Source of the DNA: a virus
Virus record (IMG/VR): IMGVR_UViG_3300024999_000004
Location: 1-64,000 of that record
DNA length: 64,000 nt
Direction: 5' to 3' (one strand)
Position 1 is the stretch's first letter; the number at the start of each line of letters is the position of its first letter. Both the position numbers and the translations under genes were made by a program. This document shows, piece by piece, positions 28,713 through 52,564 of this stretch. The notes under the pieces are model-generated. The model ran no database searches. It saw only the letters and a list, made by a program, of their open reading frames with translations, and was not told where the DNA came from.

Positions 28713-28910
28713 TCAGTCCTCCTTTTTGACAACAGCTACAGGCCTTTCGAAAAACCTCTCTTCAAGTTCCTCCCTCAGATAATACCTCCGCCCTCCCGGA
28801 GTCCTCCGCGCAACAAGTACGCCTTTGTTGTCCCAATTCTGCAGGGTCTTTATGGTGATTCCGAGGAAAGCCGCAGCCTTTCCGGTGGTCAGAATGTATT
28901 CGTTACTCAC
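28713..28910 (-). CDS. MerR-like helix-turn-helix regulator
   Basis: 65 residues, GTG start with GGAGG upstream. YILTTGKAAAFLGITIKTLQ then NWDNKGVLVARRTPGGRRYY is the winged helix of MerR/excisionase type (GIT..TLQNWd..G.L...RTpgGRRyY). Short, with no effector domain, so a DNA-binding regulator or excisionase-like factor. Located in the early leftward operon. Confidence 0.8.
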   Translation of the reverse strand: MSNEYILTTGKAAAFLGITIKTLQNWDNKGVLVARRTPGGRRYYLREELEERFFERPVAVVKKED

Positions 28911-30873: not shown

Positions 30874-31067
30874 CCGAGGGCTCCTTGGCTCTTGCTGGTC
30901 AATTCATCCACAATGAAAGAAAGTTTGTGCTGGGGCTCGGGGGGTCCTTGAGGCGGGGAATCCGTGGCCACGGATTCAAAGGCCCGTTGGAGGCAGTCAT
31001 TAATAGTGCGGGACTTCCCGTTCCTTCTTCCGAGGCAGAAAATACGTGATTCATTGGCTCCGTGCAT
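30870..31067 (-). CDS. Hypothetical protein, 65 aa
   Basis: ATG at 31067 with AAGGAG upstream; basic, with NGKSRTINDCLQRAFESVAT. No family recognised. Second gene of the leftward operon. Confidence 0.5.
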   Translation of the reverse strand: MHGANESRIFCLGRRNGKSRTINDCLQRAFESVATDSPPQGPPEPQHKLSFIVDELTSKSQGALG

Positions 31068-31114: not shown

Positions 31115-31273
31115 TTATACATTCCCATCAAGCACCTTTTGAATTGCCTCAAAAATGGCGTTGTATTGCCCGACGGTAAGATTTGGCTCTCTTCTTTCCT
31201 CCATATTCTTTTTTGCTTCTTCGAATATCACCCGAGTCATTACGCGAATCTTTCGATTCAGATTACCTTCCAT
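31115..31273 (-). CDS. Hypothetical protein, 52 aa, first gene of leftward operon
   Basis: ATG at 31273, AAGGAG eight bases upstream, and a strong promoter 30 bases before it. The product (MEGNLNRKIRVMTRVIFEEA, then LTVGQYNAIFEAIQKVLDGN) is helical and charged. Being first after an extended -10 promoter suggests an early role, but no family is recognised. Confidence 0.6.
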   Translation of the reverse strand: MEGNLNRKIRVMTRVIFEEAKKNMEERREPNLTVGQYNAIFEAIQKVLDGNV

Positions 31274-31301
31274 CCTGTTACTCCTTGTCCTACTTTACTA
31301 T

Positions 31302-31330
31302 ATATTACCACATAAACCATTGCCTGTCAA
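31302..31330 (-). promoter_or_regulatory. Leftward early promoter
   Basis: Reading leftward TTGACA (31325-31330), 17-bp spacer ending TGG, then TAATAT (31302-31307): extended -10 type. Drives the small genes from 31273 leftward. Confidence 0.88.
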
Positions 31331-31573
31331 GTCCCTTCTGTCAGGAAAAGTGCACATACTCCTGACAAACGAATAAGCGGCCTGTCCTCCGTCTTCACGT
31401 ACATGAAGTGTATAAAATGCTCAGACTGTTCCTAACTACGGAGGGGATGAATCCGGCCCCACCTATAGCGTCGGTCCATACCCCCTCCCCTCCTACGCTA
31501 TAGGTAGCGCCCCGAGCCCTTGAACCTTCGCACTACAACACCATAGCTAGCGTATACCTATGTATAGTATGAC

Positions 31574-31595
31574 CCTACGCTACATGTAGCGTAGG
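31574..31595. repeat. Perfect 22-bp palindrome
   Basis: Half-site CCTACGCTACA, no central loop, so likely a dimeric protein-binding site or cruciform rather than an RNA hairpin alone. Degenerate relatives occur upstream at about 31493 (CCTACGCTATAGG). Confidence 0.9.
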
Positions 31596-31605
31596 CCCCA
31601 GGTTC

Positions 31606-31674
31606 ACTGAACCCATTCACCTAAATATCGGTTACTGAACCCATTCATTGAACTAGACTCACTGAACCCATTCA
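31606..31674 (+). repeat. Three 14-bp iterons
   Basis: ACTGAACCCATTCA at 31606-31619, 31634-31647 and 31661-31674. Spacing is 27-28 bp, more than two helical turns, which is typical of iterons bound by an initiator or repressor. Confidence 0.85.
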
Positions 31675-31738
31675 CCTAAACAGCCCCCATGCGTCGCTTG
31701 ATCCTCTAATAAATCGAATCGAATTCTCCTTTATTTAC

Positions 31739-31766
31739 TTGCGCTTTTCGCGGTATCGTGTATAAT
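31739..31766 (+). promoter_or_regulatory. Rightward promoter for small-gene block
   Basis: TTGCGC (31739-31744), 16-bp spacer, TATAAT (31761-31766), 38 bases before the first rightward gene. Confidence 0.65.
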
Positions 31767-31803
31767 GATTATAGGTGATTAGAGCTTACTTGGGGGTGAC
31801 GAG

Positions 31804-31977
31804 ATGAACCAAAATACAGAGTTGACTATATCGCAATTGCGTTTTTCGGAAACCTGGCTTGCGCAGTCTTTGCGCGCAGTAACTCCGGTATATTTCGAGC
31901 ACGAAAAAGCCGCCTTTGAACGGTTGACGTGCGAGCTTGCGCAGGTACGTGCAGAGATTGCAACGCGGAGGGCGTAA
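31804..31977 (+). CDS. Hypothetical protein, 57 aa
   Basis: ATG with GGGGGTG upstream; product MNQNTELTISQLRFSETWLA and a helical, Arg/Glu-rich C-terminus (LACELAQVRAEIATRRA-like). First gene of the rightward block. No family recognised. The stop is one base before the next ATG, so translation is coupled. Confidence 0.6.
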   Translation: MNQNTELTISQLRFSETWLAQSLRAVTPVYFEHEKAAFERLTCELAQVRAEIATRRA

Positions 31978-36847: not shown

Positions 36848-37159
36848 ATGGAAGCGACAAAACTAGCGGGAATACTCGCAGAACATGCAGCATGGTTGAA
36901 AGACCTCACGAAAGGAGAACGCGCGAACCTCCGGGGCGCGAACCTCCGGGGCGCGAACCTCCGGGGCGCGAACCTCGATTTTTCCTGTTTCCCCCTCTGG
37001 TGCGGGGGGACAAGATTCAAGGCGGGTGACAAGTTGATCATGCAGGTTCTGGCGCATCTTTGCTCCTGGGAAGTATCAGAGGAGGCGAAGGAAGAACTCG
37101 ACAAAGTAAGGGAGTATGCGAAAAAGTCGCATAGAGCGGAGGAATGCGGTATCCTCTAG
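36848..37159 (+). CDS. Short pentapeptide-repeat protein
   Basis: 103 residues. Residues about 26-43 carry LRGAN repeats (RANLRGANLRGANLRGANLD) encoded by a 15-bp DNA repeat (about 36924-36975). Then GGTRFKAGDKLIMQVLAHLC and a helical end. The array is only 3-4 units, too short for a full beta-helix, so it may be an interaction patch. Similar short pentapeptide proteins occur in phages. Confidence 0.7.
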   Translation: MEATKLAGILAEHAAWLKDLTKGERANLRGANLRGANLRGANLDFSCFPLWCGGTRFKAGDKLIMQVLAHLCSWEVSEEAKEELDKVREYAKKSHRAEECGIL

Positions 37160-37694: not shown

Positions 37695-37696
37695 AT

Positions 37697-37826
37697 AAAA
37701 GACCCCGCGCATGGGGATAAAAGACCCCGCGCATGGGGATAAAAGACCCCGCGCATGGGGATAAAAGACCCCGCGCAAAGGGCAAAAGACCCCGCGCATG
37801 GGGATAAAAGACCCCGCGCAAAGGGC
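37697..37826 (+). repeat. Six tandem 21-22 bp hairpin units
   Basis: Units AAAAGACCCCGCGCATGGGG plus AT (37697, 37719, 37741, 37784) and variants with CGCAAAGGGC (37763, 37806). Each contains a CCCC/GGGG or CCC/GGG mini-stem. No unit is a spacer-separated array, and reading frames through it are probably incidental. Confidence 0.85.
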
Positions 37827-37866
37827 AAAAGACCCTATACGGGAGTACAAGAAGGAGCACAGACAA

Positions 37867-38385
37867 ATGAAATTCGAAGAAGGCAAGAGCTACAAAATAA
37901 TAAAAAGTGCGACGAATCCCCCCGGCCCTCCTGTCAGTCTACACGACGGCTCACCTCATCTCTGCACCAAAGCCGTACCCGAAAGTGCGAACGTACACGC
38001 AAGCTTCGATTGCGACGAATCCCCGGCCCTTATGACGATCTACACGCCGGAGGATATGGCGGACTTTCAGGAGGTGGCCACCGCCCGCAACGGAGTATTC
38101 ATGGAAGCTTCCTACTTGGAAGCAGGCAACGAAAGCAACAAATTATTCGGGGTAGATGCGAACCACCTGAAGGACAAAACCATCGAAGTCCTCCGCATAG
38201 GGGAAGGAGAAAACACGGAAACGGCCGTCCTGATGGCCATAAGGAGCGGGGTCCTCACGTCCCGGGATCTTGCGGCCTTCACGGCGTATACGATCAGCGA
38301 AGCCTACGGAAAGGCTCAGATGAGGGAAGCCGCCCCGGATTCGCTCACGGCCCTCATGGAAGCCCTGAAGGGATATCGAGGATGA
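37867..38385 (+). CDS. Hypothetical protein, 172 aa
   Basis: ATG at 37867 with AAGGAG upstream; the ORF continues upstream through the repeats but that part lacks a ribosome site. FEEGKSYKIIKSATNPPGPP, SAYTPEDMADFQEVATARNG-type helices and a C-terminal IRSGVLTSRDLAAFTAYTIS. No family recognised. Coupled to the next gene. Confidence 0.55.
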   Translation: MKFEEGKSYKIIKSATNPPGPPVSLHDGSPHLCTKAVPESANVHASFDCDESPALMTIYTPEDMADFQEVATARNGVFMEASYLEAGNESNKLFGVDANHLKDKTIEVLRIGEGENTETAVLMAIRSGVLTSRDLAAFTAYTISEAYGKAQMREAAPDSLTALMEALKGYRG

Positions 38386-38678
38386 AAACCACGGAAGCAA
38401 GGATATTCTGCGGCAGAGATGCCGAAGGCCCTATCATCATGGTCGGGGGGACGAAGGAAAAAATCTGCGGCATAGACGTGATTCAATACTTCCAGAAGCC
38501 TCCCTACAAGGAGGCTGCGAAGCATACAAAGTATGTATGCTGGGAAGGAAGAATCCGGACGGATATCGTCCCGGGAACCATGCTGGAGGAATCAACGGAA
38601 GACTGCGCAGACCTGATCGAAAGGTTCTTCCCCTACGCCACAATAAAATACGTCACCTTGGAGGAGGTGCTGCAATAG
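38382..38678 (+). CDS. Hypothetical protein, 98 aa
   Basis: ATGA overlap. MKTTEARIFCGRDAEGPIIM, then GIDVIQYFQKPPYKEAAKHT and LIERFFPYATIKYVTLEEVL. Compact alpha/beta pattern. Last gene before a strong terminator. Confidence 0.55.
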   Translation: MKTTEARIFCGRDAEGPIIMVGGTKEKICGIDVIQYFQKPPYKEAAKHTKYVCWEGRIRTDIVPGTMLEESTEDCADLIERFFPYATIKYVTLEEVLQ

Positions 38679-38735: not shown

Positions 38736-40088
38736 TAATACAAAATCAAGGATAACTTGGCATGAAAACCCTCGAACGAATTTTTACGATTTTTTATTTT
38801 TTCTTCGCGTATAGAAGGTGTAAGTGTATGATTTTTCATACGCCTGACGATATTTCGACATTCATCGAAATCTAAATATAGAAAAATTCATCGGTATGGA
38901 CATTTTGGAGATAAAAGTTAAGTCCTTATATAGAAACAAGTTACGTGAGATTTTGGCGGAAAAATGCATAAAATGAGTTTATTTTAAAGTCATACAGGGT
39001 AAGGAGTTACGCTAAGTTTTTCGTACATATAGAAAATAATATACTGTAAGTCCTTACTGGATAAGGAATTAAGAAAACATTACAATCATTATAATTATAA
39101 TGTTCACATACAGTGACGAAAAACGTAACTCTTTACTGGATAAGGAATTACGTTTTTCTTTGGTGAAAAAATAATTTACTTTTCTGGCAAGAGTGGTGTA
39201 ACTCTTTACTATGCAAGGAATTATTTTACACCGGAATCTGGGTTTTTGGCGCATTTTGCGTGGACGCTAATTCCTTTCTATGTAAGGAGTTATGCATAGG
39301 CACTAAAAATTCCTATCTTTTCCCCAAGATATGCGTAGTTTATACACCAAATTCGGAAACGACCTATGTAAATCCTTACAGGGAAAGGAAATATTCGTTT
39401 GTGTTTTATGCATAAAATATACAGAAAATAGGAAGGTTTGCACTGAATGAGCAAGAGTCAGGGGAGCATAAGAACTCGGGTTCAAAGTAAAGCTACACCT
39501 AACAAGGAGTTATGAAAAAGAGAGTCCGGGGGTCCAGAGGCAGAAATTCAAAGAATACGGGAAAAACGCATACAATTATGCAGTGAGTGGAGATGAAGAA
39601 AAATAAAATTCGGGGCTCGGGGCTCGGGGGTAGCAAGAATCGTACCAAGCGGGAATCTTAGACAAGACTAACAATGAAATAACTCTTTATGTAGCAAGGA
39701 TGTGGGGGCCCTATAGGGAGGGTTTTCAATTATTTTTCTTTTTATTTATATTTTATTACCAAATATGAACATTTCTGAAAAAAGCAAAACATTATAATTG
39801 TAATGTTTTGAAAAAAGTTTTGATTTGGTGAAAAGATATAAATAAACATAATTTTTCGCTGTAATTCGTGGCTATGTATAGAGTTAAGGTGTTTTTCTGT
39901 TGTTTTTGTTTTCCCTTCTAATGCCTTTTGGCGGAAAAATAGACGTTTTGTCGTATGCATTTTGGAGCCCCGAGCCCCGAGCCCCGAGCCCCGAGCCCCG
40001 AGCCCCGCCAACCAGTAGTCAAGAGCCCCGAGCCCCGAGCCCCGCCCACCAGTATTCAAGAGCCCCCGAGCTAAAAACTTAAAACTTC
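38736..40088. other. AT-rich non-coding region with many imperfect palindromes
   Basis: About 1.35 kb with no supportable gene. At least six copies of a ~25-bp imperfect palindrome (consensus about TAACTCYTTACTNNATAAGG then AATTA) lie near 38919, 39046, 39119, 39195, 39265, 39368 and 39676. Two are closed by longer stems (AAAACGTAA/TTACGTTTT at 39119-39156; GGTGTAA/TTACACC at 39195-39232). Another palindrome family, ACATTA...TAATGT, occurs at 39077 and 39790. GAGCCCC tandem repeats lie at 39965-40055, complementary to GGGGCTC repeats at 39611. Candidate origin, partition-like site or structured RNA; function unknown. Confidence 0.6.
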
Positions 40089-40117
40089 TTGACAAAAAAT
40101 AAATTAAAGAGTATATT
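40089..40117 (+). promoter_or_regulatory. Sigma-70 promoter for AbrB-like pair
   Basis: TTGACA (40089-40094), 17-bp AT-rich spacer, TATATT (40112-40117). Confidence 0.85.
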
Positions 40118-40672: not shown

Positions 40673-41848
40673 ATGAGCGTGCCCGCAACGAAAGATATTT
40701 CTATTGTCAAGACAATCCTTTCCCACGGAGGGGACTGTGGATGTTTTCCTTGTGTTGAGTGTCCTTTGTCCCAACCAGAGGGCGAATGCCCCCGTGAAGG
40801 TGCTGATGACGACACTCTAAAGCTCGCGCAGGAGTGGCTGAAGAAGCACTCGCCCTCTTCCATTGTCGAGGTCGTAATCGCGCAGGAGGGGGAGTGCCTT
40901 GGGTTTTCTTGTTTCTCCTGCCCTTTGGAGGGCGAATGCGAACTAACTGACGCTTCCTCTTTCTCTGCGGCACTGAAGTGGATGGAGGAAAATTCGCCTT
41001 CCCCCCGCGCGGGCGTCAGCAGCTGGACGAACAACCAAGGCGAAGTCTTCCATATAGGAGACGAAGTTACAGGAGCGGCCTCCCCCGGAATCAGAGGGCG
41101 TATTCATTGTCAGAGCCACGCGCCGGATTTGGTTGTCGTTGTCCTCAGCGGGGATACTGCCCGGGGGTGGGGGAAAAGCCACAGCGACTTCCCGAAGGAT
41201 CTCCCTCCTGAAGCAAAGTGCTGGAATGTCGCGGCGGAGTGTTTACGCAAAGCGCCTGCTGTTCTCTCCGGAGTAGAGGGATTCCGCGACAGCCTCGGAA
41301 CTCCTATTGCTATCGGAGCCCGGATTCTCTGCTCCGATGCATCCGCTGCCTCCGCAAAGGCGGGGGTGGAAATCCATACCTTTGTGGGGATGCTTCCGGA
41401 CGGAAGATACAAGGAAGATCGGGATTTTGGGTGGAGGTATTGCGTTGCAGTCTCCACCCCTCCGGTGGAGGGCGAGGGCTCAGAATTCAAGCCCGGGGAT
41501 TTCGTGAGAAGCGAAGACTACCCTAACTTGAGGGGCTATATTCACTGTATGAAAGCAGACGGTGCTTATATTGTCATCCGCACCGACGGGGAGGGGTGGG
41601 ACAAGAGCACGGAAGCCCTGACACAGGATCTCCCGGAGGGGACGAAATGCTGGAAGGTGAGTGCGGGGAGTTTAAGGAAAGCTCCTGCTTCGGATTATAC
41701 CTCCCGAGGAGTAGGAGGGTCGATGCACGCGCAACTGCTTGCCGGAGGGGAGCGAATAACTCTTGTTTGTCGCCCTTCTCCTACTCCTCTTCTTTCTACT
41801 ACTCAGTCTTTTGACGAAATCCGGCTGCAGCTGCTCAGGGGGATGTAG
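40673..41848 (+). CDS. Modular Cys-repeat plus SH3-like repeat protein
   Basis: 391 residues, ATG with AGGAGG upstream. Two N-terminal Cys modules (CGCFPCVECPLSQPEGECP and CLGFSCFSCPLEGEC, each ending in a helix with a WLKKHSP / WMEENSP tail). Then two ~65-residue modules of the form GDEV...GRIHC...V...G.GW...LPPEAKCWNV...LRKA, and a C-terminal SFDEIRLQLLRGM. The same module and tail are in the next protein. I know the Cys module from phage proteins but not this combination. Role unknown; a zinc/SH3 scaffold is an inference. Confidence 0.7.
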   Translation: MSVPATKDISIVKTILSHGGDCGCFPCVECPLSQPEGECPREGADDDTLKLAQEWLKKHSPSSIVEVVIAQEGECLGFSCFSCPLEGECELTDASSFSAALKWMEENSPSPRAGVSSWTNNQGEVFHIGDEVTGAASPGIRGRIHCQSHAPDLVVVVLSGDTARGWGKSHSDFPKDLPPEAKCWNVAAECLRKAPAVLSGVEGFRDSLGTPIAIGARILCSDASAASAKAGVEIHTFVGMLPDGRYKEDRDFGWRYCVAVSTPPVEGEGSEFKPGDFVRSEDYPNLRGYIHCMKADGAYIVIRTDGEGWDKSTEALTQDLPEGTKCWKVSAGSLRKAPASDYTSRGVGGSMHAQLLAGGERITLVCRPSPTPLLSTTQSFDEIRLQLLRGM

Positions 41849-41883
41849 AGCATTCTTGCCTGTGGGGTGTTTCCTGCTCGGTG

Positions 41884-41915
41884 GGGCGAAGTCGGTGACT
41901 ACAGGCGAAAATTTG
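41884..41915 (+). promoter_or_regulatory. Recurrent leader motif (GAAGTC family)
   Basis: GGGGCGAAGTCGGTGACTAC then AGGCGAAAATTT just before the GGAGG site of the gene at 41926. Nearly identical to the copy at 43989. Confidence 0.6.
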
Positions 41916-41925
41916 GAGGATTCAA

Positions 41926-42486
41926 ATGGGCTGGAAGAACACTTCAGGGTATTGTTTCAACATAGGCGATATTGTGGAGGACGCAGAAGATCCCTTGGTC
42001 AACGGGAAGGTTGTGGCTGTAGACTCCTCGGGGAATAATCTTGTCATCATTCGTTCCGATGGGAGGGGGTGGCCCAAGGAAGATCACGATTACACGCAGC
42101 ATCTCCCGGAGGGAACGAAGTGCTGGCATGTTTTGTTGGATGACTTGAGGCCACACAGTACGGAAGCTTCCGGATTCAAGGTCGGAGACTTCATCTGCGA
42201 CAAGAGCAGCAATAATGTCATTGGGCGTATTCTCCTTGTCGATGAGGTCGGGGATTATCTGACAGAACGTGCCGAGCACCTGCCGAAAGGAACGAAGTGC
42301 TGGGGGGTACTGAAGAAGAACGCAGCCATGAGTACGCGGCCATGGCAGGAGATGTCCTTTGCAGGCCACGTCGGGAGCGAGCATATTATCCCCCTCCTGC
42401 GGCGTACCCAAGCAGAAATGAGAAGCGCCCGCGTAGTGGCGGACACCTTTGATAGCATCCGCCTGCAACTTCTCCGTGATTTGTAA
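41926..42486 (+). CDS. SH3-like repeat protein, partner of upstream modular protein
   Basis: 186 residues. Module 1: GDIVEDAEDPLVNGKVVAVD to LPEGTKCWHVLLDDLRP. Module 2: GDFICDKSSNNVIGRILLVD to LPKGTKCWGVLKKNA. The TFDSIRLQLLRDL tail is shared with the 391-residue protein. The conserved G.KV..D.....GTKCW frame and shared tail define a family of at least two members here. Confidence 0.65.
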   Translation: MGWKNTSGYCFNIGDIVEDAEDPLVNGKVVAVDSSGNNLVIIRSDGRGWPKEDHDYTQHLPEGTKCWHVLLDDLRPHSTEASGFKVGDFICDKSSNNVIGRILLVDEVGDYLTERAEHLPKGTKCWGVLKKNAAMSTRPWQEMSFAGHVGSEHIIPLLRRTQAEMRSARVVADTFDSIRLQLLRDL

Positions 42487-44355: not shown

Positions 44356-44940
44356 ATGATGCAGGATTCACAGATGCTTGACCCCCACGCCGTGTTTTGT
44401 TCCCTTTTTCGTGGAGGAAGCAAGGCTCACGGTCAGCTTCTTCGCGGTAAAGTTTACTCCACGATCTTTGGGCCGACGACCCCCGCCGACTACGCCTCTC
44501 ATCTGGCGGGGCACATAAGCCTCGGGATCGTCCCTGTTCTTGACGACGGATCTTGCCGTTTCGGAGTCATCGACGTGGATTTGATTCCGTCCATTTCCTC
44601 GGGAGGGGAGGCGCATTTGATCCGCGAAGCGTGGAAGCTCGGGCTCCGCCCGTTCCGGTCAAAAAGCGGAGGGCTTCATTTGTACGCTTTCTTTCGTGTC
44701 ACGGAAGCTGCGGAGGAAATTCGTGACTATCTTCTTGAACTTTGTCAGGAACTCAGTCTCCCGCAAAATACCGACATTTTCCCTCGGACATCAAGGGACT
44801 TCCTGTCATGGGTCAATCTCCCTTATTTCGGGGATACCCGACGCATGATTATGCAGGATGGGTGTGAGGTCTCTTTTCATGAGGCCATGGAATCTCTATC
44901 CCGATTTCTGCCTTCAGTAAAAGGAGCCACAGATGCTTGA
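44356..44940 (+). CDS. Archaeo-eukaryotic primase-like domain protein (TOTE-type)
   Basis: 194 residues. DVDLIP (Asp73-Val-Asp75), then RSKSGGLHLYAFF (101-113, His108), then NTDIFPRTSRDF and VNLPYFGDTRRM. This is the AEP order seen in TOTE conflict-system and phage primase-like proteins: metal-binding DxD, sGGxH motif, then NLPYFG. No helicase is fused and none is next to it. It may prime phage replication or act as a nucleotidyltransferase. ATG with AAAAGGAGCC upstream. Confidence 0.78.
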   Translation: MMQDSQMLDPHAVFCSLFRGGSKAHGQLLRGKVYSTIFGPTTPADYASHLAGHISLGIVPVLDDGSCRFGVIDVDLIPSISSGGEAHLIREAWKLGLRPFRSKSGGLHLYAFFRVTEAAEEIRDYLLELCQELSLPQNTDIFPRTSRDFLSWVNLPYFGDTRRMIMQDGCEVSFHEAMESLSRFLPSVKGATDA

Positions 44941-50450: not shown

Positions 50451-51377
50451 ATGGGAGGAGGAAGCTGGAGCCCGAGTTCATGGGCCACTCACGCAACCGC
50501 TACCGCGTCGATGTCGCGCTCGGCATTGTACTCAAGCCGGGGCATCAAGAAGGAACTTGACCCCAAGGGCGTTGCCGTCAGGGAATCCCGGGACTCCACG
50601 GAGCACCCTGAATCGACGGCCATTGCCGTGTTCCTCGATGTCACCGGGTCCATGGGGTTCATCGCGGAGAAGATCGCCAAGGAGGGCCTCGGAACCTTGT
50701 TCCAGGAAATCCTGGACCGCAAGCCCGTGCCCGATCCGCAGCTCCTGTTCGGGGCCATCGGCGACGTAAGGTGCGACAGCGCCCCGCTTCAGGTGTCCCA
50801 GTTCGAGTCCGACAACAGGATCGTGGAACAGCTCACCGGCATCTACCTCGAAAGCGGCGGCGGCGGAAACGACACGGAAAGCTACGATTTCCCTTGGTAC
50901 TTCGCGGCAAAGCACATGGCCGCAGATTGCTTCGAGAAGCGTGGCAAGAAGGGTTATTTGTTTACCGTCGGCGACGAGTCCACCCCCGCAGGAATCTCCC
51001 CGGAGCATCTGAAGGAGTTCCTCGGCAGCGCAGAAGAAATCACCGAGGAACTTTCCGCCGAGGAGCTTCTGGCCATGGCGGAGAAGAAGTGGAACTGCTA
51101 TCACATCATCGTCGAGGAAGGGAACTATTGCAGCTTGCGCGGGCGTGATGCCGTCCTCCGCAAGTGGCAGGATCTCATGGGCCAGCGGGCCGTTCCCCTT
51201 TCTGACTACACCAAGCTTCCTGAAGTCATCATCTCCCTGATCCAGCTTTCCGAAGGAGCTGACAAGAAGAAGGTGGTGGATTCGTGGGACGGTTCAACGT
51301 CGGTAGCGGTCGCCGCTGCTTTGGACGGGATAGTAGCCCGCTCGGGCGGCTCGGGCGCGGGCATGGTCGCCCTTTAG
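50451..51377 (+). CDS. von Willebrand factor A (vWA) domain protein
   Basis: 308 residues. MIDAS DVTGS (Asp63 to Ser67, in AVFLDVTGSMGF), then a Gly-rich ESGGGGNDTESYDFPW and FTVGDESTPAGISPEHLKEF, the third metal loop. Helical parts KKWNCYHIIVEEGNYC and HKVIISLIQLSEGADKKKV-like complete the Rossmann-like fold. Metal-dependent binding protein, intracellular (no signal peptide). Comes right after the J-domain/kinase-like gene and acidic peptide. Confidence 0.85.
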   Translation: MGGGSWSPSSWATHATATASMSRSALYSSRGIKKELDPKGVAVRESRDSTEHPESTAIAVFLDVTGSMGFIAEKIAKEGLGTLFQEILDRKPVPDPQLLFGAIGDVRCDSAPLQVSQFESDNRIVEQLTGIYLESGGGGNDTESYDFPWYFAAKHMAADCFEKRGKKGYLFTVGDESTPAGISPEHLKEFLGSAEEITEELSAEELLAMAEKKWNCYHIIVEEGNYCSLRGRDAVLRKWQDLMGQRAVPLSDYTKLPEVIISLIQLSEGADKKKVVDSWDGSTSVAVAAALDGIVARSGGSGAGMVAL

Positions 51378-51394
51378 GACATAAGGAGAATCGA

Positions 51395-52564
51395 ATGAAA
51401 GGAATCGCCGTCATAGGAGCCAACTACGGAGACGAGGGGAAGGGTCTTATGACGGACTTCCTTTGTGCAAGGGAAGCCAAAGCAGGAAAGCAGGTATTCG
51501 TTGTCCGGCACAACGGAGGCGCACAGGCGGGGCATACTGTGGTGGCTCCTGCCTCAGAGGGGGGCTTCCGGCATGTCTTCCATCACTTTGGTAGTGGAAC
51601 CCTGCAAAGCATCCCCACAATCCTCGCCAAGGATTTCATTCTCAACCCCATATTGTTCCGGAAGGAATACGAGGAGCTTGAAGCTGCGGGGTACGCTCCC
51701 GAGGTTTTCGTAGACGTAAGATGCCGGATAACAACTCCGTGGGACATGGTGTACAACCAAGCACAGGAGGAAGCTAGGTCCCCCGCTGTGGCGGGAGGAG
51801 AGCGGCACGGAAGCTGTGGCGTCGGAATCAACGCCACGGTGGACAGGAATGAGGTGATTCCTTTCACTCGTGAGTCGGGTTGCCTGAGTTCGTTGGAGAG
51901 GATATCCGGGCACTACAAAAACAAGATGTTCCCTGCAGGGGTGCCATCAGAAGCCGAGAATTCTCGATTTTTTATGTCTCCGGGACTGGAAGAGGTGGGC
52001 CACGCATTCAGCTCTGATCTGTACTTCCTGATTAGGCACACTTCCGTCATGGATTATCCTCTTTGTCAACACCCCAATGCGGACAGCTTCACCTTCATCT
52101 TCGAAGGAGCCCAGGGCCTCGGACTCGATGAATATATGGGCTCCTACCCCCATGTCACGAGGTCCAATACGGGCCTGCGGAACGTCGTCGATTTCTGCCG
52201 GGAGCACAAGATAGACCTTGACGAGATTGTCTACGTGACCCGGAGCTACCTCACGAGGCACGGGAATGGGCCCATGGAAGGAACCCTATATTCTGAAGAA
52301 GCGTATTTCGAGGACAAGACGAATGTTCCGAACCCGTGGCAAGGGACTCTTCGTCAGAGTGCCATGGATGAGGAAGCCTACTTCAATATGGCGGAAAGAG
52401 TTGCATGGGATACTCAGTCAGTGGGAATGGGAAGCAAGCCGATATCTTTGGCTATCACTCACAATGACCAATTAACGTCCGAAGATTGGGAGTACTCACT
52501 TATTCCTGTCAAGTACAAAAGCTTCGGGGAGACGAGGGAAGATGTGAAGGAGACCAAAAAATGA
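51395..52564 (+). CDS. Adenylosuccinate synthetase homologue (PurA/PurZ family)
   Basis: 389 residues, ATG at 51395 (AAGGAG upstream). IGANYGDEGKGLMTDFLC includes the P-loop GDEGKG with the catalytic Asp13 kept. HNGGAQAGHTVV has His47. Then GSGTLQSIPTILAKDFILNP, RHGSCGVGINATVDR and FEGAQGLGLDEYMGSYPHVT, and TRSYLTRHGNGPM. The phage-type RHGSCGVG and TRSNTG patterns match the phage PurZ/PurA clade. PurA makes adenylosuccinate from IMP; PurZ uses dGMP for 2-aminoadenine DNA. Keeping Asp13 is like PurA or PurZ0. Confidence 0.82.
   Translation: MKGIAVIGANYGDEGKGLMTDFLCAREAKAGKQVFVVRHNGGAQAGHTVVAPASEGGFRHVFHHFGSGTLQSIPTILAKDFILNPILFRKEYEELEAAGYAPEVFVDVRCRITTPWDMVYNQAQEEARSPAVAGGERHGSCGVGINATVDRNEVIPFTRESGCLSSLERISGHYKNKMFPAGVPSEAENSRFFMSPGLEEVGHAFSSDLYFLIRHTSVMDYPLCQHPNADSFTFIFEGAQGLGLDEYMGSYPHVTRSNTGLRNVVDFCREHKIDLDEIVYVTRSYLTRHGNGPMEGTLYSEEAYFEDKTNVPNPWQGTLRQSAMDEEAYFNMAERVAWDTQSVGMGSKPISLAITHNDQLTSEDWEYSLIPVKYKSFGETREDVKETKK

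Follow-up and report, generated by a model that had tools for sequence, protein, structure and literature searches.

Two unrelated arrays of putative protein-binding sites between divergent promoters at the main gene junction of a phage genome

The stretch of DNA analysed here (the window) comprises bases 1-64000 of a virus record of 93,595 bp. The record ends in a direct terminal repeat of 104 bp, and the phage genome, of about 93.49 kb, is therefore probably complete. A leftward arm that starts at 31.27 kb carries genes of the terminase, portal, capsid and tail families. Rightward genes, which include primases, helicases, polymerase A and methyltransferases, extend from 31.80 kb to 87.5 kb, and leftward genes are found again from 87.5 kb to the end of the record. 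The single exception to this layout, for which the gene caller took the strand arrangement as a prior, is a questionable plus-strand ORF (237-1229). The main divergent junction of the phage genes is the repeat-bearing gap described here, and the features in and around it are as follows.

31115-31273, minus strand: first leftward gene (52 residues; predicted two-helix hairpin, without a family match).
31274-31803: gene-free gap of 530 bp, the whole putative control region, between divergent genes that start at 31273 (leftward) and 31804 (rightward).
31302-31330, minus strand: leftward sigma-70-type promoter, TTGACA-17-TG-TAATAT (10 of 12 consensus positions and an extended -10).
31339-31367: inverted repeat TGTCAGGA-N13-TCCTGACA (arms at 31339 and 31360), immediately upstream of the leftward -35 box.
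31453-31474: dyad site A, CCGGCCCCACCTATAGCGTCGG (CCGACGCTATAGGTGGGGCCGG on the opposite strand), 13 of 18 positions.
31492-31513: dyad site B, CCTACGCTATAGGTAGCGCCCC, 14 of 18 positions, the second-best site of the genome.
31535-31556: dyad site C, ACAACACCATAGCTAGCGTATA (weak), 12 of 18 positions, in register with the others.
31574-31595: dyad site D, the perfect palindrome CCTACGCTACATGTAGCGTAGG, 18 of 18 positions.
31604-31625, plus strand: iteron 1 (14-bp core at 31606-31619).
31632-31653, plus strand: iteron 2 (core at 31634-31647).
31659-31680, plus strand: iteron 3 (core at 31661-31674).
31701-31740: AT-rich, easily melted tract of about 40 bp, the best 40-bp window of the gap.
31739-31766, plus strand: rightward promoter candidate, TTGCGC-16-TATAAT, read from the sequence (-35 at 31739-31744, -10 at 31761-31766).
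31804-31977, plus strand: first rightward gene (57 residues; without a PHROG match).

The rightward genes have several features of their own. The small unknown genes between 31804 and 38678 form a block whose third-position AT skew is opposite in sign to that of the adjoining 39-50 kb block and of the left arm; the block may have been acquired as a separate module. Tandem repeats, perfect or nearly so, lie at 36921-36976 (15-bp units) and at 37695-37835 (22/43-bp units), the latter overlapping the predicted start of the gene at 37755-38678. Two adjacent genes in 40673-42486, apparently paralogues, encode products with the common repeated motif GxGW...LPEGTKCW...LR. Two primase-type genes, at 44356-44940 (194 residues) and at 6477-8183 of L003 (568 residues), match PF22548 (an archaeo-eukaryotic-type primase domain) and PHROG 21866 (primase). 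The gene at 51284-52564 encodes an adenylosuccinate-synthetase-like (PurA-like) enzyme that retains GDEGKG; its best PHROG is labelled 2-aminooxy adenylosuccinate synthetase, and its score lies below the NCBIfam PurZ cut-off. The phage also has a PF04447 dATP/dGTP pyrophosphohydrolase and a PolA that resembles DpoZ (below cut-off), and a 2-aminoadenine (Z) genome is possible.

No plausible ORF was found in 31274-31803, in agreement with the statement of the earlier note that no gene fits here. An RNA explanation for the gap was considered and set aside: no Rfam match was obtained in the 64-kb window, and the predicted folding is only mildly better than that of shuffled sequences (z of about -2.6 and -2.2). 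The region is 51% AT and hence is not AT-rich overall. The earlier note had placed the repeats between two outward promoters, and the promoters are of unequal quality. The leftward promoter is a strong match that shares its class with most of the other best promoter-like sites of the phage. The rightward promoter is only a weak match, with a perfect -10 box but a poor -35 box (half of the consensus), and it falls below the thresholds of both promoter scans; such a combination would suit an activated promoter. Some 410 bp separate the two -35 boxes, and no promoter-like site internal to the gap was found at the scan thresholds used. The leftward promoter probably serves the terminase-portal arm, because from 31.3 kb to about 13.4 kb it is the sole minus-strand site of the strong class that lies within a gap. 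The inverted repeat beside it may be an operator or may have arisen by chance: about 0.15 inverted repeats with 8-bp arms are expected per gap of this kind, and half of the site is also found within genes.

The gap carries two arrays of repeated sites. The three 14-bp iterons with a periodicity of 27-28 bp that the earlier note had reported are exact copies of ACTGAACCCATTCA, which start at 31606, 31634 and 31661 (spacings of 28 and 27 bp); copies 1 and 3 are identical across 22 bp. The closest other matches in the genome are at 84671 (two mismatches) and 1517 (three mismatches). A 14-mer triple within 250 bp was seen in none of 100 simulated genomes, and a 10-mer triple was seen in two of 2000 shuffles of the 530-bp gap. 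The perfect 22-bp palindrome at 31574-31595, also noted earlier, is the longest perfect palindrome of the genome. Palindromes of at least 22 bp occurred in two of 100 simulated genomes and in none of 2000 shuffles of the gap; taken alone and genome-wide, the palindrome is only moderately rare. Its degenerate relatives prove to be ordered: together with it they make up a row of four 22-bp dyads, with starts at 31453, 31492, 31535 and 31574 and spacings of 39, 43 and 39 bp. When scored against the 18 specified positions of the dyad, the two best sites of the genome both belong to this array; site C is weak by itself and is counted because of its register. The core TAGCGT/ACGCTA occurs 29 times in the genome, with five of these occurrences falling inside a stretch of about 125 bp in the gap, and clustering as tight as this was not obtained in any of 20000 random placements.

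The iterons are positioned 10-85 bp to the right of the dyad array and are followed by the easily melted tract of 40 bp and then by the rightward promoter. Both arrays are far above chance expectation and are absent elsewhere in the phage. The iteron and dyad sequences are unrelated, and two proteins are therefore expected to bind them.

Relatives of the region were sought in viral contigs (by terminase, portal, MazG-like protein, g72 protein, iteron doublet and palindrome), in bacterial genomes (by iteron doublet and terminase) and in plasmids and phages (by blastn); a scan with the single 14-bp iteron used a query that is too short to be informative. In these collections the gap, with its iteron and dyad arrays, was found only in near-identical contigs of the same phage. 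A close relative, represented by one contig with about 91-93% DNA identity, ends short of the gap region. An unrelated contig (L224) has the palindrome arms in common; there the arms form a hairpin with a T-rich run behind it, which is probably a transcription terminator, and this match was rejected.

The presence of non-random, locus-specific arrays of putative binding sites between outward promoters supports well the interpretation of the gap as a divergent cis-acting control region. More specifically, we assign a probability of about one half to the reading in which the gap controls, from upstream, both the strong leftward promoter and the weaker rightward promoter. Two different DNA-binding proteins, of phage or host origin, would occupy the two arrays: one a dimer on the four TAGCGTAGG dyads (period of about 40 bp) and the other a protein on the three direct repeats (27-28 bp). 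The bound proteins would set the balance between leftward and rightward transcription. The strong leftward promoter would read into small nucleotide-metabolism genes and then into terminase and portal, and the rightward promoter, with its weak -35 box, would read into the small unknown genes at 31.8-38.7 kb. The distance from the arrays to either -35 box is about 60-270 bp, and they would therefore act from upstream, via activation, looping or wrapping, without covering a promoter. The gap, the promoter match and the repeats with their order and uniqueness are seen directly; that proteins bind here, in which direction they act and which proteins they are is what we infer. In favour of a control region, the arrays are non-random and are confined to the main gene-strand switch, and the overall AT content of the gap is not high. 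Against it, neither array overlaps a core promoter, these motifs were not found at other promoters of the phage, and an origin of replication, too, would be compatible with iterons next to an AT-rich tract.

The phage encodes two small HTH proteins that are candidate binders, and neither gene adjoins the control region.

28713-28910, minus strand: MerR/HTH_17-type small protein (65 residues; PF00376, E-value 5e-12), in the leftward gene run.
82718-82948: XRE protein (76 residues; XRE match at 82733-82900).

The 52-residue first leftward product was also considered as a binder and was rejected, as a single-sequence model predicts a two-helix hairpin without a recognised DNA-binding fold.

In a phage whose products include a small XRE protein and a MerR/HTH_17 protein of excisionase-like type, a pair of divergent promoters accompanied by tandem operator-like sites could also represent a lysis-lysogeny switch of the lambda or 186 type or, if the phage is temperate or plasmid-like, an attachment or partition site. 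However, no match to the tyrosine integrase family (PF00589) was found in the genome, and neither a serine recombinase nor ParA/ParB is among the Pfam matches. The search for repressor-like genes returned the single XRE match, 51 kb from the gap, and no adjacent repressor/Cro pair; no repressor gene lies beside the gap. Moreover, the sites do not overlap the promoters, and their spacing is unlike the one-turn repeats of 186 Apl (PMC7498355). A lambda-type lysogeny switch and an attachment site are both unlikely because a tyrosine-integrase match, an adjacent repressor and promoter overlap are lacking, and we give this account a low probability.

The same DNA can serve both for control and for the start of replication, so the control-region reading does not exclude a role of the gap in replication. 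If the gap were the phage replication origin, an unrecognised phage initiator would bind the iterons, melt 31701-31740 and load the phage helicase/primase, while the dyads would bind a regulator and divergent transcription would aid opening. Several observations are consistent with this. Near-identical direct repeats, in three exact copies, directly adjoin the locally easily melted tract; three iterons are within the range of two to seven known from plasmids (PMC4980987); the phage carries its own polymerase, primases and helicases; and the minima of the cumulative GC, AT and purine skews lie at most about 150 bp from the right edge of the region. Among 40-bp windows, the tract is surpassed in ease of melting by only about 0.5% of the genome, but it is short and DNA at 38.9-39.9 kb is far more meltable and has more repeats. 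The iteron period corresponds to about 2.6 helix turns and is thus poorly phased; in RK2, a half-turn offset of iterons abolishes cooperative binding (PMC4980987). No strict DnaA box was found, and none of the genes scanned was recognised as a plasmid- or lambda-type initiator. This includes the scanned genes neighbouring the gap, which bears out the remark of the earlier note that no known initiator is adjacent.

Cumulative GC skew, taken over the full genome, is lowest at 31,749 and highest at 88,300; the maximum lies near the gene-strand switch (about 87.5 kb) and not at the antipode (about 78.5 kb). A skew minimum at a divergent junction can stem from gene orientation and needs a fourfold-site control before an origin is called, the use of fourfold sites only being an established way to separate coding direction from replication (PMC3269016). 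In every segment, genes read on their coding strand show an excess of G at the first and second codon positions, whereas at fourfold-degenerate sites the skew is near zero or opposite. The minimum at the gap therefore reflects gene orientation, and the codon-position analysis rules out GC skew, which the earlier note had proposed as a check, as proof of an origin. Of the features of an iteron origin, helical phasing, an initiator match among the neighbouring genes scanned and a replication-caused switch in strand composition are all lacking at the gap. An origin in the gap is less likely than not, and the evidence for it is weak in view of the more plausible start site 7 kb away.

38877-39963 (38760-39963 in a wider delimitation): gene-free AT-rich stretch of about 1 kb, with seven to eight copies of a 25-bp dyad (TAACTCTTTACTGGATAAGGAATTA and its relatives); rival origin candidate.

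No other gene-free gap of the genome is as large as this stretch (about 38.8-39.95 kb), which is 71-72% AT at both ends in a phage that is roughly 48% AT. At 80, 150 and 300 bp, the windows that melt most easily anywhere in the genome lie inside it, and the top 40-bp window, at 40094, is on its right flank; for each of the four window sizes tested, the easiest-melting DNA is thus in or next to the stretch. The eight best matches of the genome to the 25-bp dyad all fall within it. These properties make it a better origin candidate than the gap at 31274-31803, and an origin here, with a dimeric protein binding seven or eight dyads and the gap having no replication role, is a serious possibility that nevertheless falls somewhat short of even odds. 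There is no skew change at 39 kb, and the stretch lies directly upstream of a strong promoter (40089), so it could instead be regulatory or an acquired silenced element. A GC-rich heptamer array separates the stretch from this promoter on the right. The heptamer, GAGCCCC, occurs in tandem at 39965-40046 and also at 39610-39629, with single copies at 30932, 31102, 31509 (inside the control region) and 53430; in another copy of the phage (contig IMGVR_UViG_3300025011_000153) the array is about 36 bp shorter. An origin at 39 kb and the control-region reading of the gap can both be true, and the probabilities of the readings do not sum to one.

A further and improbable reading is that the four-dyad array (about 40 bp) and the three-iteron array (27-28 bp), with two phage proteins, would constitute a new type of origin or enhancer in which one complex starts replication and flips transcription of the arms. 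Taken together, the part of the earlier proposal of a textbook origin or genetic switch that holds is the control region; the textbook origin is not well supported, in view of the skew, the phasing, the initiator and the rival site, and a lambda-type switch is unlikely. The gap is the master junction at which the two gene arms meet in a phage lineage that is almost without relatives in the collections searched, and it supplies two defined site arrays together with two candidate binders.

Comparison with known systems places the gap close to several of them. Like lambda OL/OR, the gap has dyad-like sites, three of them in near-tandem arrangement, ahead of a phage promoter; unlike in lambda, the sites lie off the promoters, there is no adjacent repressor gene and there is no integrase match. 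The iteron origins of RK2, pSC101 and R6K share with the gap tandem direct repeats beside an AT-rich tract, and pSC101 likewise has three iteron copies (PMC4980987). The phage differs from these origins in its core of 14 bp (classical plasmid iterons, in the cases listed, are 17-22 bp long; PMC4980987), its spacing of about 2.6 turns, an AT-rich tract of only about 40 bp, the lack of an adjoining initiator gene or strict DnaA box, and the presence of a second, unrelated dyad array. The Apl-bound pR-pL region of phage 186 (PMC7498355) resembles the gap in having direct repeats between divergent early phage promoters and in the encoding of an excisionase-like small HTH protein. The Apl sites repeat every helix turn, whereas those in the gap repeat every 27-28 bp, and the present phage has no integrase match and has its HTH gene in the leftward gene run, not adjoining the region. 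Finally, the pLS20 conjugation switch (PMC4207663) has divergent promoters, as the gap does, and involves DNA looping; the pLS20 promoters overlap, whereas those of the phage are well separated at their -35 boxes.
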